A DNA stretch of 59,526 nucleotides from a virus: IMG/VR virus record IMGVR_UViG_3300008108_000206, positions 1 to 59,526 of that record. One strand, written 5' to 3'. The position numbers were made by a program, and so were the translations under genes. Every line of letters begins with the position of its first letter. The first letter of the stretch is position 1. Of the stretch, positions 10,532-31,751 are shown piece by piece. The notes beneath the pieces are model-generated. The model was given only the letters and a program-made list of their open reading frames with translations. It searched no databases and had not been told where the DNA came from.

Positions 10532-10762
10532 ATGAACACCGAACTTATGTACGTTGTCATTGACAACACTGCTATCGCTATCGATTTCACTGGTACTCCC
10601 GTTCAGTGTCAACTCATTCATCAAGATGACATTGAATACGTTGATTGGGATTCTGCTGACCCTATTGACTGGTTGGACCTTACCCCAGATCAATATCAAG
10701 TCTACAAACAAACTGTAGATTTCCTCCATCAGTTCACCCAACAACCAATGTACATCAAATGA
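10532..10762 (+). CDS. Acidic hypothetical protein, 76 aa
   Basis: GGAG is correctly spaced before ATG 10532. Beta-rich N-terminus (LMYVVIDNTAIAIDFTGTP) and acidic centre (DDIEYVDWDSADPIDWLDLT). ATGA overlap with the next gene. Confidence 0.65.
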   Translation: MNTELMYVVIDNTAIAIDFTGTPVQCQLIHQDDIEYVDWDSADPIDWLDLTPDQYQVYKQTVDFLHQFTQQPMYIK

Positions 10763-10998
10763 CTAAACTCTCCAAAGTTGTAGTAACTCACGCTAAACAA
10801 CTCCTTACCATAACAGAAGATCTTAAAGTAATCCCTAAACAAAATATTACACCAAGAGAATATCAACTCTTCTGGACTTATCATGGTAAGTTCCCACAAG
10901 AATTTACTCAAGCTATTATTGATTCCCTCCCTCCAGATTATGATTTCGTTTCCTATAACCATCTCACTAATACACTGGAGGTCCACCCTCATGTCTAA
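10759..10998 (+). CDS. Hypothetical protein, 79 aa
   Basis: ATGA start overlap. Sequence segments KVVVTHAKQLLTITEDLKVI and YQLFWTYHGKFPQEFTQAII suggest a small globular alpha/beta protein. It ends 8 nt into the next gene. Not recognised. Confidence 0.65.
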   Translation: MTKLSKVVVTHAKQLLTITEDLKVIPKQNITPREYQLFWTYHGKFPQEFTQAIIDSLPPDYDFVSYNHLTNTLEVHPHV

Positions 10999-11215
10999 TA
11001 AAAGAAAAACTAAAGAAGAAAAAGAATTTGAATCTGTATCTAAACAATCAGATAACATACTAGAATACATGCAAGATAGATTCCATACTCTCATGCAAGA
11101 AGATCGTATGGATGATGCTATCGCTATTGGTGATGAATTCATTGAATGGATGAAAGGTGATGATGATGAAATCTACCTATACTACAATGAACATGAACTA
11201 AAAGAACTACTATAA
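10991..11215 (+). CDS. Charged helical protein, 74 aa
   Basis: ATG 10991 follows GGAGG at 10978 and gives a strongly charged N-terminus (MSNKRKTKEEKEFESVSKQS) and an acidic helical tail. It is the last gene of the closely packed run, just before the DnaA-box cluster. Function unknown. Confidence 0.65.
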   Translation: MSNKRKTKEEKEFESVSKQSDNILEYMQDRFHTLMQEDRMDDAIAIGDEFIEWMKGDDDEIYLYYNEHELKELL

Positions 11216-11220
11216 TCATA

Positions 11221-11266
11221 GTTTTCCACAGGATACGGAACAATTGTGGAAAAACCTGTGGAAAAC
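11221..11266. other. Candidate replication origin: three DnaA boxes in an inverted repeat
   Basis: TTTTCCACA occurs on the + strand at 11222-11230 and on the - strand at 11245-11253 and 11257-11265, the last two 12 bp apart. GTTTTCCACAGG (11221-11232) and CCTGTGGAAAAC (11255-11266) are a perfect 12-bp inverted repeat. TTTTCCACA is the DnaA box form used by cyanobacteria. An AT-rich tract follows directly. An origin or a DnaA-titrating site are the two readings. Confidence 0.5.
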
Positions 11267-11429
11267 TCTTATATTAATAAATGTTTAAAAAAATATACTT
11301 GTGTTTTGTATTCAACACATTATACTATGAGTAAATTACCTTTATTTCGAGTTTGACAGTGGAAATGTTCTGAAATGTACGGAGGTGTTGTTGTCTTAGC
11401 ACGCCTGCTACCGAATTGTCAAGTCATTA

Positions 11430-11544
11430 TGTGCCAGTCCTCAAAGTGTCACAGAGCCCCTTGACAACACACTGTCAACCTCTCTTGTGCCAGTTTTATC
11501 AGTGTCACAGTGGGCTTGACAACCTCCAAGATCTCGGATATACT
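11430..11544 (+). promoter_or_regulatory. Palindrome-type promoter, copy 4, with a second upstream palindrome
   Basis: 24-nt palindromes at 11430-11453 and 11486-11509 share TGTGCCAGT left arms and AGTGTCACA right arms, with starts 56 nt apart. The downstream one is followed by TTGACA (11516-11521), a 17-nt spacer and TATACT (11539-11544), the best -35/-10 pair in the window; the gap from palindrome to -10 is 29 nt. A TTGACA with a facing TGTCAA also follows the first palindrome. The first long gene downstream is at 11690. Confidence 0.7.
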
Positions 11545-11689
11545 GTGTGTATGGAAATGAGGGAATTCCCAAATTTCCAAAAACTCAAAAAAAGCAAAAA
11601 ACGAGAAAATCAAAAAAGTCAAATTTTAAGATTTTTAAGTTTTTGAGTTTTTTGAGAAATGTAAATCTTAACCTTTAACCATTAACCTA

Positions 11690-12775: not shown

Positions 12776-12794
12776 AAAACTGAAAAAGTAAGAA

Positions 12795-12875
12795 ATCTCA
12801 AAAAGTCAAATTTTTAAAAAACTTAATTATTTGACTTTTTGAGATAATTAGAATAGTTAATTTTTAAAAATTAAC
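12795..12875. repeat. 17-bp perfect inverted repeat plus 20-bp perfect palindrome
   Basis: ATCTCAAAAAGTCAAAT (12795-12811) and ATTTGACTTTTTGAGAT (12829-12845) are perfect complements with a 17-nt spacer. Next, GTTAATTTTTAAAAATTAAC (12856-12875) is its own reverse complement. The block ends in repeated ATTAACC heptamers just before ATG 12904. A weaker version of this arrangement precedes the gene at 11690. Confidence 0.8.
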
Positions 12876-13315: not shown

Positions 13316-13365
13316 AGTTGTGTGGTTGAGAAAACCACATTTTTCACCCCAATCTTTTTCCACAA

Positions 13366-17893: not shown

Positions 17894-17915
17894 ATAACAA
17901 ACGTTTTTGTCTACT

Positions 17916-18308
17916 GTGCCACAGTTTCAAACATTTAAAGATTTAAATGTTACATTCAAGCCACATCCTGTAACTGGTGATTTAATTGTCAGTAAGGATG
18001 TGGCTGCTGTCAAACAGGCTATTATTAATCTTTTGTTAACCAACAAAGGTGAGCGTTTATTTAATTCTCAGATTGGATCAAATATTTCTAGATTATTATT
18101 TGAACAATTAGATTATGGCGTAGCAGCACTGGTTCAATCTGAGATTAAAAATGTATTAAATGACTATGAACCAAGAATTAATATTCTATCGTTAGAGGTT
18201 ATACCAAATTTTGATGATAATGGATTTGATGTTGGAATGGAATTTGAGATTATAGGTAGAGACGATATTCCACTCAACGTAGAATTCTTTTTAGAGAGAA
18301 CTCGATAA
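17916..18308 (+). CDS. 25: Baseplate wedge protein gp25
   Basis: A 130-residue protein of the gp25/GPW family. After KDLNVTFKPHPVTGDLIVSK it shows the family core: AIINLLLTNKGERLFNSQIG followed by SNISRLLFEQLD, the GER ... P/S ... LLFE signature. gp25 binds gp6 and gp53 in the wedge and primes sheath contraction near the tail tube. The length is as in T4 (132). GTG 17916 gives MPQFQTF; a TTG at 17907 in the same frame would add three residues. No strong ribosome site is seen. Followed directly by gp6 and preceded by a perfect late promoter. Confidence 0.9.
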   Translation: MPQFQTFKDLNVTFKPHPVTGDLIVSKDVAAVKQAIINLLLTNKGERLFNSQIGSNISRLLFEQLDYGVAALVQSEIKNVLNDYEPRINILSLEVIPNFDDNGFDVGMEFEIIGRDDIPLNVEFFLERTR

Positions 18309-20102
18309 ATGCCATACACACAAGTAGCAAATTTAGATTATAATGACATAAAAATTGCTTTAAAAGAATATTTAAGATCTCAATCAGATTTTACTGATTA
18401 TGATTTTGAAGGTTCTGTATGGAGCACGTTACTTGATGTATTGGCTTATAATACGTATTATACAGCGTTTAATACAAATTTAGTTGTCAACGAATTATTT
18501 TTAGATTCAGCAACATTGAGAGATAATGTTGTTGGAATTGCTAAGCAATTAGGGTATTCGCCAAAGTCAGTTACTTCACCTGTTGCTTACATTAGTTTTG
18601 ATGTTAATTTTACTAATACAACGCCAGATGTAGCTATTTTAAGAACTGGTTCTGCATTTACTACAATATTTGATTCCGAATTATATCAATACACTACATT
18701 AGATGATGTATCAGCATCAGTAGAGAATGGTGTTGCTAGTTTTATTAATGTACCTATTTACGAAGGCTCATTAGTCAAGAATTCTTATACTGTTAATACG
18801 GCATTAAAATCACAACGGTTTACTATTCAAAACCAAGGCGTTGATGCAAGTAGTATTAAAGTAAAGGTATATCCTTCTCAGAATTCATCTGCTTATGAAT
18901 TTTACGATAAAGCAGAGAATATCTTAGATGTTAATTCAACAACTAAATCATATTTCTTAAATGAAATTGAAGATGAGAATTATGAGTTATTTTTTGGTGA
19001 TGGTGTTTTGGGCAAAAAGTTAGAAAATAATCAATTTATTGAAGTTAGTTATCTTGTTACTAATGGTCCTTCTACAAATGGAGCTAAAACATTTGTATTC
19101 AATGGTATTATAGATGATAAAGATAATGCAGTTTATCCTTTATCAGTATCAGTAACTGATGTTACTCCAGCATCAGGTGGAGAGAACATCGAAAGCATTG
19201 ATAAAATTAAATTCAATGCTCCCAGGTATTTTGGCACACAGGACCGTGCAGTGACCGCACAGGACTATGCAGCGATCGTTAGAAACATTTATCCAGCAGT
19301 TGCAGATATTATTACTTTTGGTGGGGAGTTAGCAAGTCCTCCTGAATATGGAAAGGTAAAGGTAGTTATTAAGCCCTCTAATGCCAATTTACTTTCTTCT
19401 TTTACTAAACAAGAAATTATAAGAAAGTTAAGATCATATATGGTTGGATCGGTTACTGTTGATATTATTGATCCATCAATTTTATATGTCGAATTAACCA
19501 GTAAGATTTATTTTAGTAGAGCAAAGACAAATTTACCTCCAGCAGAGATTGTTAAAAAAGTAAAAACTTCTATTCAGCAATATATTGAGCAATCTGACAC
19601 AGAAAAGTTCAATGGCAAATTTAGATATAGTAAATTTATTGGTGTCATTGATGATTCTGATAGATCAATCAATTCGAATCAAACTAGCGTAATGATGAGA
19701 AAGGATTTTTATCCTGCAATCAATTCAAGCTTCTTTTATGAAGTATGTTTTCAAAATACTTTTGACAAAGATTGCGAAGGACCAACATTGCATTCAACTG
19801 GGTTTGTAGTAAGCGAATTTCCGCAGTATACCTCGTATCTCGAAGATAGGAATGGTAGAATCGTCCTATATAGAATAGATGATTTAACTGGACTAAAAAT
19901 AGTTCTAAATGACTCCGTTGGAGACATTAATTATGATAAAGGTGAGATTATGTTATATGATTTAACTATTATTCGTGGTTCTTTTGAAGATAATCGTATT
20001 GAATTAAGAGTAAAACCTTTAAGTAATGATATTAATGCAGTAAGAGAGGTTTTCCTAGACGTTGATATGTCCACAAGTAAGTTCACTGCTTATCCCGAGT
20101 AG
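18309..20102 (+). CDS. 6: Baseplate wedge protein gp6
   Basis: A 597-residue gp6/Baseplate J-like protein. The N-terminus (NLDYNDIKIALKEYLRSQSD, then FEGSVWSTLLDVLAYNTYY and TNLVVNELFLDSATLRDN) is typical of T4-like gp6. Later blocks (RYFGTQDRAVTAQDYAAIVR) belong to the J-like ring domain. gp6 forms the continuous iris-like ring of the baseplate by dimerising through N- and C-terminal parts. T4 gp6 is 660 residues, so this is near full length. The start overlaps nothing: ATG is 1 nt after the gp25 stop. Confidence 0.9.
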   Translation: MPYTQVANLDYNDIKIALKEYLRSQSDFTDYDFEGSVWSTLLDVLAYNTYYTAFNTNLVVNELFLDSATLRDNVVGIAKQLGYSPKSVTSPVAYISFDVNFTNTTPDVAILRTGSAFTTIFDSELYQYTTLDDVSASVENGVASFINVPIYEGSLVKNSYTVNTALKSQRFTIQNQGVDASSIKVKVYPSQNSSAYEFYDKAENILDVNSTTKSYFLNEIEDENYELFFGDGVLGKKLENNQFIEVSYLVTNGPSTNGAKTFVFNGIIDDKDNAVYPLSVSVTDVTPASGGENIESIDKIKFNAPRYFGTQDRAVTAQDYAAIVRNIYPAVADIITFGGELASPPEYGKVKVVIKPSNANLLSSFTKQEIIRKLRSYMVGSVTVDIIDPSILYVELTSKIYFSRAKTNLPPAEIVKKVKTSIQQYIEQSDTEKFNGKFRYSKFIGVIDDSDRSINSNQTSVMMRKDFYPAINSSFFYEVCFQNTFDKDCEGPTLHSTGFVVSEFPQYTSYLEDRNGRIVLYRIDDLTGLKIVLNDSVGDINYDKGEIMLYDLTIIRGSFEDNRIELRVKPLSNDINAVREVFLDVDMSTSKFTAYPE

Positions 20103-29921: not shown

Positions 29922-31751
29922 ATGGCTGCTATTATCTCAGATAAGTTTAGAATTTTTAATGCTAAACAGTTTTTAGAATCTCTATCTGAAGGATCGACCG
30001 ATAACGGTACTGAGCGTACCAGAATGTACTTTTTCGTTGGTCGTCCACAAAGATGGGATTCATACGTAGAAATTTACAACAAGAATTCAACTGCTTTTGT
30101 TGCTGGTAACGAAGTTTATGTTGGTGCTAGCTATGCAGCAGCAACTTTCAAAGCAACTATTAGACAGGTTTATGCAGATAGTTTACTCCTTTTTGGAGTT
30201 GGACCTTCAACTTCATCTGTTCCTCCTGCTGGCTCAACTTTAAAAGCTTGGAATGGAACTGCTGATACTGGTGCTACTGCAGTAACTGGTGTTTACAGAT
30301 ATGCATCAGAAGATGTACCACCAGTTCCACTAGATAACCAAAAAGAGAAGTTTGATCTTTATGATGACATTATTGCAGCAAAAAGAATTACCGCTGACTT
30401 TGCTCGTGCAGTAATCCGTCGTTATAATTGGGATTTAGTTGCTAATCCTAAGTATGATATGTGGAAACCTGATTATTCTGCTACTCCTGGTAGTGGTGGT
30501 CAAATAGGAAAACAGGCAGCAACTGGAGCCACTTCAATTAGTGATGCTAAGTTTTATGCTATCAATTCTCAGTATGAAGTATTTAAGTGCCTTTATAATG
30601 GCCAAAATCCAGCTAATCCAACTGGACAAAATGCAACAAATGAGCCAAAGACAACCCCTTCAGCTGGTCAAGGTTCCTATTCAAATGGAATTTTTACAGA
30701 AGAAGCAGGTAATGCTGGTTATGTTTGGAAATATATGTACACAATTCCAACAAATGATGTATTGCGTTTCCTCTCTACTGACTTTATGCCTATTGTAACA
30801 ACATCTGATGTAACTAGACAAGCAACGGAAGCAGCAGCAGTTAATGGTGCAGTTAATGTAGTTCTAGTAGAAAGTGTTGGTGCTAATCTTCCTAACGGAA
30901 CTCATTATGCTCCAATTATTGGCGATGGTTCTGGTGGTATTGTTAGATTAGTTGTAACTTCAGGAGCATTAGTATCAGCAACTGTTACTAATGTTGGTAG
31001 TGGTTACACTTATGCTTCAGTTCCACTTGCAACTGGAACTGGCTCTGGAGCAACTGCTTATGGCTTATTCAGTGATGCTGCTCTAACTTCATCTGTTACT
31101 GTAGGTAGCACTGCTGTAGGAGCTCTTGAACCAGTAATTTCACCACAAGGTGGTCATGGTTCTGATTTCGAATTGGAACTAAATGCTAAGCGTGTTATGA
31201 CAAATATTCGCTTGACCTATGCAGAAGGTTCTGGCGATTTCCCTGTAGATAATGATTTCCGTAGAATCGGTATTCTTAAAGATCCATATGCTTTTGGAAC
31301 GACTTCATTTGCTACTGTAGATACTGTAAACGGTTTGTATGCAGTAAAAATTAGTGGTGCTACAGCAGATTACCAACCTGATGAAACTATTTCACAAACT
31401 GTAACGGGCGGAACTGCATATGGTACAGTAGTTTCATGGACGTTAGATTCTGGAAGCACAACAGATGGAGTTCTTAAATATATCCAATCACCAGATCTTC
31501 ATAAAAATTCTGGTAAGGTAAGAGCTTTTGAGTCTAATGGAGCAAATGCTATCACTGGTTCAATTTCTCTTGCTAGTGGTAATGTTGACATAGCAGATAA
31601 TTCTTCTGTTTTGGGAGTTACTTTTTCTAGTGGTTTAGCAAATCCAGAAATTGCTCAAAATTCTGGAGATATGATTTACGTAGAAAATAGAAGATTGATT
31701 ACGAGAGCTCCAGATCAAATTGAAGATATCAAACTTGTTATCGAATTCTGA
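29922..31751 (+). CDS. 8: Baseplate wedge protein gp8
   Basis: A 609-residue protein with the cyanophage gp8 start (MAAIISDKFRIFNAKQFLES) and FFVGRPQRWDSY, GYVWKYMYTIPTNDVLRFLS, and late GGHGSDFELELNAKRVMTNI, FPVDNDFRRIGILKDPY. In T4, gp8 is a dimer in the wedge that binds gp10, gp7 and gp6. It is longer than T4 gp8 (334), because one or more Gly-rich beta insertions (VTNVGSGYTYASVPLATGTG) are present, as usual in cyanophages. Codon use is less AT-rich than the giant genes around it. Late promoters upstream and a terminator downstream make it a single-gene unit. Confidence 0.85.
   Translation: MAAIISDKFRIFNAKQFLESLSEGSTDNGTERTRMYFFVGRPQRWDSYVEIYNKNSTAFVAGNEVYVGASYAAATFKATIRQVYADSLLLFGVGPSTSSVPPAGSTLKAWNGTADTGATAVTGVYRYASEDVPPVPLDNQKEKFDLYDDIIAAKRITADFARAVIRRYNWDLVANPKYDMWKPDYSATPGSGGQIGKQAATGATSISDAKFYAINSQYEVFKCLYNGQNPANPTGQNATNEPKTTPSAGQGSYSNGIFTEEAGNAGYVWKYMYTIPTNDVLRFLSTDFMPIVTTSDVTRQATEAAAVNGAVNVVLVESVGANLPNGTHYAPIIGDGSGGIVRLVVTSGALVSATVTNVGSGYTYASVPLATGTGSGATAYGLFSDAALTSSVTVGSTAVGALEPVISPQGGHGSDFELELNAKRVMTNIRLTYAEGSGDFPVDNDFRRIGILKDPYAFGTTSFATVDTVNGLYAVKISGATADYQPDETISQTVTGGTAYGTVVSWTLDSGSTTDGVLKYIQSPDLHKNSGKVRAFESNGANAITGSISLASGNVDIADNSSVLGVTFSSGLANPEIAQNSGDMIYVENRRLITRAPDQIEDIKLVIEF

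Follow-up and report, generated by a model that had tools for sequence, protein, structure and literature searches.

Replication of T4-like phages is taken to start through R-loops and recombination, carried out by the phages' own machinery. On plasmids, the iteron origins of pSC101, RK2 and P1 use the host DnaA. The orientation of DnaA boxes in the basal unwinding geometry is known from Bacillus subtilis. In this geometry, the unwinding element lies on the CACA side of the boxes, and the unwinding modules of oriC allow tandem boxes 3 bp apart (PMC8287927). In cyanobacteria the DnaA box is TTTTCCACA, with binding of DnaA in vitro at the oriC of Cyanothece (PMC4674748). For T4 itself, a review reports no DnaA boxes at oriF and oriG and likens the repeats of oriE to iterons (PMC3016281).

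The DNA analysed here (the window) is a stretch of 59,526 nucleotides from the IMG/VR record IMGVR_UViG_3300008108_000206. It is a fragment of a cyanophage that is T4-like, as an earlier note on this DNA had said of the phage, with the baseplate genes gp25 (17907-18308), gp6 (18309-20102) and gp8 (29922-31751). These T4-type genes with cyanophage relatives, together with the shared gene order, place it in the Kyanoviridae, and its nearest relative is Synechococcus phage Sf-FR1. An ORF-free gap (11216-11689) contains three perfect copies of TTTTCCACA spanning 11222-11265 (Table 1), at positions that we confirmed exactly; the earlier note had recognized them as the cyanobacterial form of the DnaA box, and they match the published box letter for letter (PMC4674748). 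Two of the three sit in an inverted repeat, AGTTTTCCACAGG / CCTGTGGAAAACT, which is perfect as described before and measures 13 bp instead of the 12 bp first given; its spaced pattern is present in 11 IMG/VR stretches. One further, isolated copy of TTTTCCACA lies elsewhere in the window (13356-13364).

This cluster is confirmed and exceeds by far what chance would give. In 2000 dinucleotide shuffles of the window, three boxes never fell within 36 bp, and two did so in 2/2000. At least two copies of TTTTCCACA within 45 bp occur in 7/7 sequences (the window and six complete cyanophage genomes), a figure that measures the specificity of the 9-mer and not its frequency in the family, since the six relatives were partly picked for matching the locus. 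By comparison, each of 1259 other 9-mers composed of these letters clusters in at most one of the seven sequences, and triplets, found in 6/7 for TTTTCCACA, are never formed by the permuted-letter controls.

Table 1. Features of the element and its surroundings (window coordinates, except for the S-RSM4 repeat).
Feature	Position	Strand	Remarks
phrog_4564 gene, upstream	10759-10998		marks the shared neighbourhood together with phrog_4892
Upstream small gene	10883-11215	+	phrog_4892 over residues 48-109; true start may be internal
Perfect inverted repeat, 13 bp, AGTTTTCCACAGG / CCTGTGGAAAACT	11220-11267	.	arms 11220-11232 and 11255-11267
DnaA box 1, TTTTCCACA	11222-11230	+	exact; convergent with boxes 2 and 3
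DnaA box 2, TTTTCCACA	11245-11253	-	exact; first of tandem pair
DnaA box 3, TTTTCCACA	11257-11265	-	exact; 12 bp from box 2 (3-bp gap)
AT-rich core, candidate unwinding element	11266-11300	.	89% AT; conserved part AAATGTTTAAAAAAATATACTT at 11279-11300
Block 3, bipartite motif	11374-11422	.	CTTAGC 11395-11400, GTCAA 11418-11422; probable protein-binding site
Sigma-70-type early promoter candidate, TTGACA-N17-TATACT	11516-11544	+	11 of 12 matches
Downstream small gene, phrog_4357, 78 aa	11690-11926	+	same family after the element in five relatives
GGTTCTCAATA/TATTGAGAATC repeat in S-RSM4	just upstream of about 10254	reverse

Alignment of the locus across Kyanoviridae reveals a three-part non-coding element made of a box module, an AT-rich core and a bipartite motif (block 3). 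In its most frequent form the box module is TGTGGAAAA-acc-TGTGGAAAA, at a 12-bp pitch; a convergent third box is common, and the equivalent of box 1 of the window is kept in many relatives. The stricter pattern TGTGGAAAA-N0-4-TGTGGAAA gave no match in 13 further phages and Syn9, because the boxes there are convergent, overlapping or wider apart, and exact box positions were used instead. The core has the consensus AAATGTnTTAAAAAACATAGG across the aligned relatives. Its composition and low duplex stability agree with the AT-rich stretch that had been noticed beside the boxes: in the window this flank includes a 50-bp stretch whose stability falls in the lowest 0.5%, and in six of seven genomes the core belongs to the 0.2-2.7% of 50-mers with the lowest stability. 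Syn1 is the exception, with a core that is not unusually unstable (15.9% of its 50-mers are less stable).

Block 3, the more deeply conserved part of the element, has the form TTGTnGnCTTAGCaCGC...GTCAA in the alignment, with the bipartite motif CTTAGC-N16-GTCAA. The distance between the two halves is 16 bp in 27/37 sequences and 27-29 bp, about one helical turn more, in four. RNAalifold found no consensus fold for block 3 in the 37 sequences. This spacing, which keeps the helical phase, and the lack of an RNA fold suggest that block 3 is a protein-binding DNA site. Three other identities were rejected. A structured RNA at the element finds nothing convincing in Rfam and no fold in RNAalifold. 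A minus-strand sigma-70 promoter (TTGAC-N17-GCTAAG) would have a poor -10 box and, in several phages, a spacing increased by 11-13 bp. As for a general early-promoter element, only 0-3 further loose matches occur per genome (two in Syn9, three in DSL-LC03), none of them joined to an AT core.

The element resembles the dnaN-linked cyanobacterial oriC in using the same 9-mer in several close copies, next to an AT-rich stretch and in non-coding DNA. However, it belongs to a lytic phage and has neither dnaN nor dnaA beside it, its tandem boxes have the AT core on the opposite side, and it carries the additional CTTAGC/GTCAA block; moreover, the phage boxes are exact, whereas the boxes near dnaN of Synechococcus WH7803 and RCC307 are imperfect. 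Within T4, the nearest analogue is oriE, which likewise lies upstream of baseplate gene 6 and combines direct repeats with an early promoter (PMC3016281); in the cyanophages, gp6 starts 5.6-6.9 kb downstream of the element. In contrast, the T4 repeats are located inside the coding sequence of gene 5, with 24-nt spacing and no DnaA boxes. Neither the repeats nor the origin show sequence similarity to the element, and homology with oriE was rejected on this ground. The T4 genome has no box cluster, only two isolated boxes 10 kb apart. The R-loop origins oriF and oriG, from the same virus class, share an AT-rich unwinding element near a promoter, but T4 requires there a MotA middle promoter that directs transcription into the element, while the strong cyanophage promoter is directed away. 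Finally, iteron plasmid origins also combine DnaA boxes with an adjoining AT-rich stretch and another kind of recognition motif, yet no Rep gene or iteron array is recognised at the phage element, which resides in a lytic T4-like phage with its own replisome.

A search with the 146-bp neighbourhood of the window gave matches in many cyanophages, mostly in non-coding DNA, and the spaced two-box pattern alone retrieved 109 IMG/VR stretches, in many of which the same AT-rich sequence follows downstream. In all of the first eight complete genomes, the equivalent locus holds a tight box cluster. The element is located at about 19.23-19.35 kb in S-PM2 (NC_006820) and at about 52.55-52.71 kb in Syn9 (NC_008296). 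A nucleotide profile of the element gives a single match in each of six complete genomes, and it detects the element of S-RSM4 too, a phage without any exact box that was outside the training set. Among 12 further cyanophages chosen by name, six (S-SM1, S-SM2, S-ShM2, Syn19, P-SSM7 and S-SSM5) have a close group of two or more exact boxes in the corresponding neighbourhood. S-RIM2 has a box cluster at the element, and in P-TIM68 a box pair and a weak core match are separated by about 300 bp; no convincing match to the element was found in S-SSM7 and P-SSM2. Isolated boxes elsewhere in cyanophage genomes do not keep their positions. The flanking genes are shared as well, phrog_4564 and phrog_4892 upstream in the window and Syn1, and phrog_4357 downstream in the window and five relatives, with a different downstream gene in S-H38 and DSL-LC03.

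As an independent test, we scanned IMG/VR with block 3 alone. This yielded 34 non-redundant loci with enough upstream DNA, of which five lacking GTCAA were set aside as chance matches. Within 230 bp upstream of block 3, the remaining 29 loci have at least two exact boxes in 20 cases, one in three and none in six, and at least one box is present in 5/53 loci in the downstream control region. The element is a family-wide property of T4-like cyanophages and not the oddity of one of them.

Further box clusters were observed along the way. DSL-LC03 (OR003938.1) has five exact DnaA boxes at 80507-80579, about 380 bp downstream of the conserved element, and second box pairs lie 250-630 bp downstream of it in S-ShM2 and P-SSM7. 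Four exact boxes occur at 105950-106003 of IMGVR_UViG_3300033273_000282, about 105 kb from the element on the same 200-kb contig. Tandem DnaA-box arrays without AT core or block 3 are also present at several IMG/VR loci (L017, L048, L076, L087 and similar ones) on contigs with a GC content of 0.51-0.66; the other phages or plasmid-like elements behind these arrays may also use host DnaA.

No DnaA domain IV was detected in 20 cyanophages and T4 by a search that does recover DnaA from control genomes, and also from the marine Synechococcus strains WH7803 and RCC307, one of which is the host of S-PM2. DnaA is thus available in the infected cell, and any DnaA acting at the element of the phages tested would therefore be that of the host. 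Near dnaN, no exact TTTTCCACA was found in WH7803 or RCC307; both have an imperfect box pair there (TTTTCCACG-TTTTCCCCA in WH7803), with a conserved stretch on its CACA side. A whole host chromosome contains only 8-14 exact boxes. Close exact pairs lie far from dnaN at 1819368-1819420 in WH7803 and 474410-474451 in RCC307, possibly as DnaA regulatory or titration sites. The 13-mer TAGTAGTTCTTTT, common to the WH7803 oriC and the minus strand of the window at 11200, is absent from six other phages and was discarded as a coincidence.

The best reading of these sequence features is that the element engages host DnaA and has an origin-like role. More precisely, we favor a replication origin in which host DnaA serves for recruitment or opening, with a probability of about 55%. 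Host DnaA would bind the two or three perfect boxes early in infection and would help to open the adjacent AT core or recruit the phage replisome, while a second factor would occupy the CTTAGC-N16-GTCAA block; recombination-dependent replication would then take over. DnaA binding, strand opening and a start of replication at this place are what we infer from a consensus box cluster beyond chance and specific to TTTTCCACA, next to a stretch that is AT-rich and, in six of seven genomes, easily melted. Also in favor are the occurrence at one place per genome with shared flanking genes, the box counts at the block-3 loci (at least two in 20/29), the expansion of box arrays near the locus in DSL-LC03, S-ShM2 and P-SSM7, and the presence of DnaA in the host but not in the phage. 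A single theta origin has, in addition, been predicted for Syn9 (PMC2984593), which we count on the same side.

Several observations weigh against an origin. The GC-skew plot proposed in the earlier note, drawn for six full genomes, shows no inflection at the element and lends no support, although the test is weak because nearly all genes run one way and replication is largely recombination-dependent. The polarity is not that of the basal unwinding system, since tandem boxes 2 and 3 turn their AAAA side to the AT core, toward which only the convergent box 1 points. Some phages lack exact boxes, S-SSM7 and P-SSM2 lack a convincing match, the Syn1 core is of ordinary stability, and a strong early promoter is close by, in keeping with a role in transcription. 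Of the DnaA-dependent origin first proposed, what holds is a T4-like phage with cyanobacterial boxes and a meltable stretch in a conserved place and architecture; a skew inflection is absent, the polarity is opposite to that of oriC, and in several phages the core and block 3 persist without exact boxes.

Promoter control by DnaA and DnaA titration are live rivals. In the first, which we consider unlikely, host DnaA and a second factor on CTTAGC/GTCAA would regulate the early promoter and hence the phrog_4357 gene and its followers, with the AT stretch as a promoter-upstream element. Indeed, in most of the genomes checked, block 3 is followed after 26-93 bp by a sigma-70-like promoter (10-12 of 12 matches), at 11516 in the window, and the downstream gene family is conserved. 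However, no strong promoter was found after block 3 in S-PM2, DSL-LC03 and P-HM1, and the gene that follows is a different one in S-H38 and DSL-LC03. Block 3 with an AT core is absent from the other 17-36 strong promoters per genome, and a three-part region of 200 bp is large for one small gene. The conserved promoter is directed away from the core, as is a weaker one (TTGTGT-N16-TATACT) seen by eye just right of the core in the window alone. An origin assisted by the transcript would unite both roles. The window also has AT-rich inverted repeats sharing a TCAAAAAGTCAAATTTT-like sequence at 11574-11660 and 12776-12850, each just upstream of a small gene, the former conserved with phage Sf-CH3.

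Titration seems quite improbable. The boxes would be a sink drawing DnaA off the host oriC as phage copies build up, halting host initiation, and the perfect phage boxes facing an imperfect pair near host dnaN, together with the few exact boxes per host chromosome, are compatible with this. But two or three boxes per genome make a weak sink, the isolated boxes elsewhere have no conserved position, and a sink would not explain the constant distance from the AT core and block 3, the single place or the synteny. We give slightly less credit to a third possibility, that another host or phage protein preferring TTTTCCACA binds the 9-mers and DnaA is not involved. DnaA binding is predicted here from a sequence match, the polarity relative to the core is non-canonical, and a different inverted repeat takes the same place in S-RSM4 and in the IMG/VR loci L381 and L384; against this stand the exact match to the published box (PMC4674748), the 3-bp tandem gap allowed in oriC unwinding modules (PMC8287927) and the trend of the boxes with host genus. 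A functionless chance cluster, for which nothing more than the low information content of one 9-mer can be said, is rejected as extremely improbable on the shuffle and permutation controls and on the conservation of the element among genera with diverged flanking DNA.

Returning to the DnaA-assisted origin, the AT core and block 3 are kept without exact boxes in S-RSM4, P-SSM4, P-HM1, P-RSM4, P-HM2, MED4-213, P-RSM1 and P-SSM3, mostly Prochlorococcus phages, and DnaA therefore looks accessory. In S-RSM4, L381 and L384, the inverted repeat GGTTCTCAATA/TATTGAGAATC replaces the boxes beside the same core and block 3, possibly as an alternative initiator module. Some box-less phages have TTCCGCA or TCCGTA motifs that could be diverged DnaA boxes, and S-SSM4 has one exact and several near-exact boxes. 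At least two close exact boxes are found in 14/17 Synechococcus phages versus 2/11 Prochlorococcus phages (P = 0.0015); seven of the 17 were picked by similarity to the locus, and without them the counts are 7/10 versus 2/11 (P about 0.03). Collapsing the Prochlorococcus genera, a control for phylogeny at the genus level only, gives P = 0.01. The scarcity of boxes in Prochlorococcus phages agrees with a remark in the literature that no DnaA box lies near dnaA in Prochlorococcus (PMC4674748). The boxes thus have the appearance of an accessory module, matched to the host and added to a deeper core. With somewhat less than even confidence, we propose one conserved origin with an exchangeable initiator module on a fixed AT core and CTTAGC/GTCAA site, the module being host DnaA boxes in most Synechococcus phages and other repeats or diverged boxes elsewhere.

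Literature combining cyanophage with DnaA or origin terms contains no description of the element, in a coverage that mostly excludes subscription papers, and the replication start site of these abundant marine phages is not established in the accessible literature. Taken together, the element is real and conserved, and probably a candidate DnaA-engaging origin of a new variety. A single conserved locus with host DnaA sites in most Synechococcus phages makes the start site directly testable in S-PM2 or Syn9. If the reading is true, a lytic T4-like phage borrows the replication initiator of its host, and the host is visible in the phage origin. Through the element, the replication of the phage could be coupled to the cell cycle of its host. 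Perhaps it could be linked to the host genus too, given that Prochlorococcus phages carry the boxes less often.
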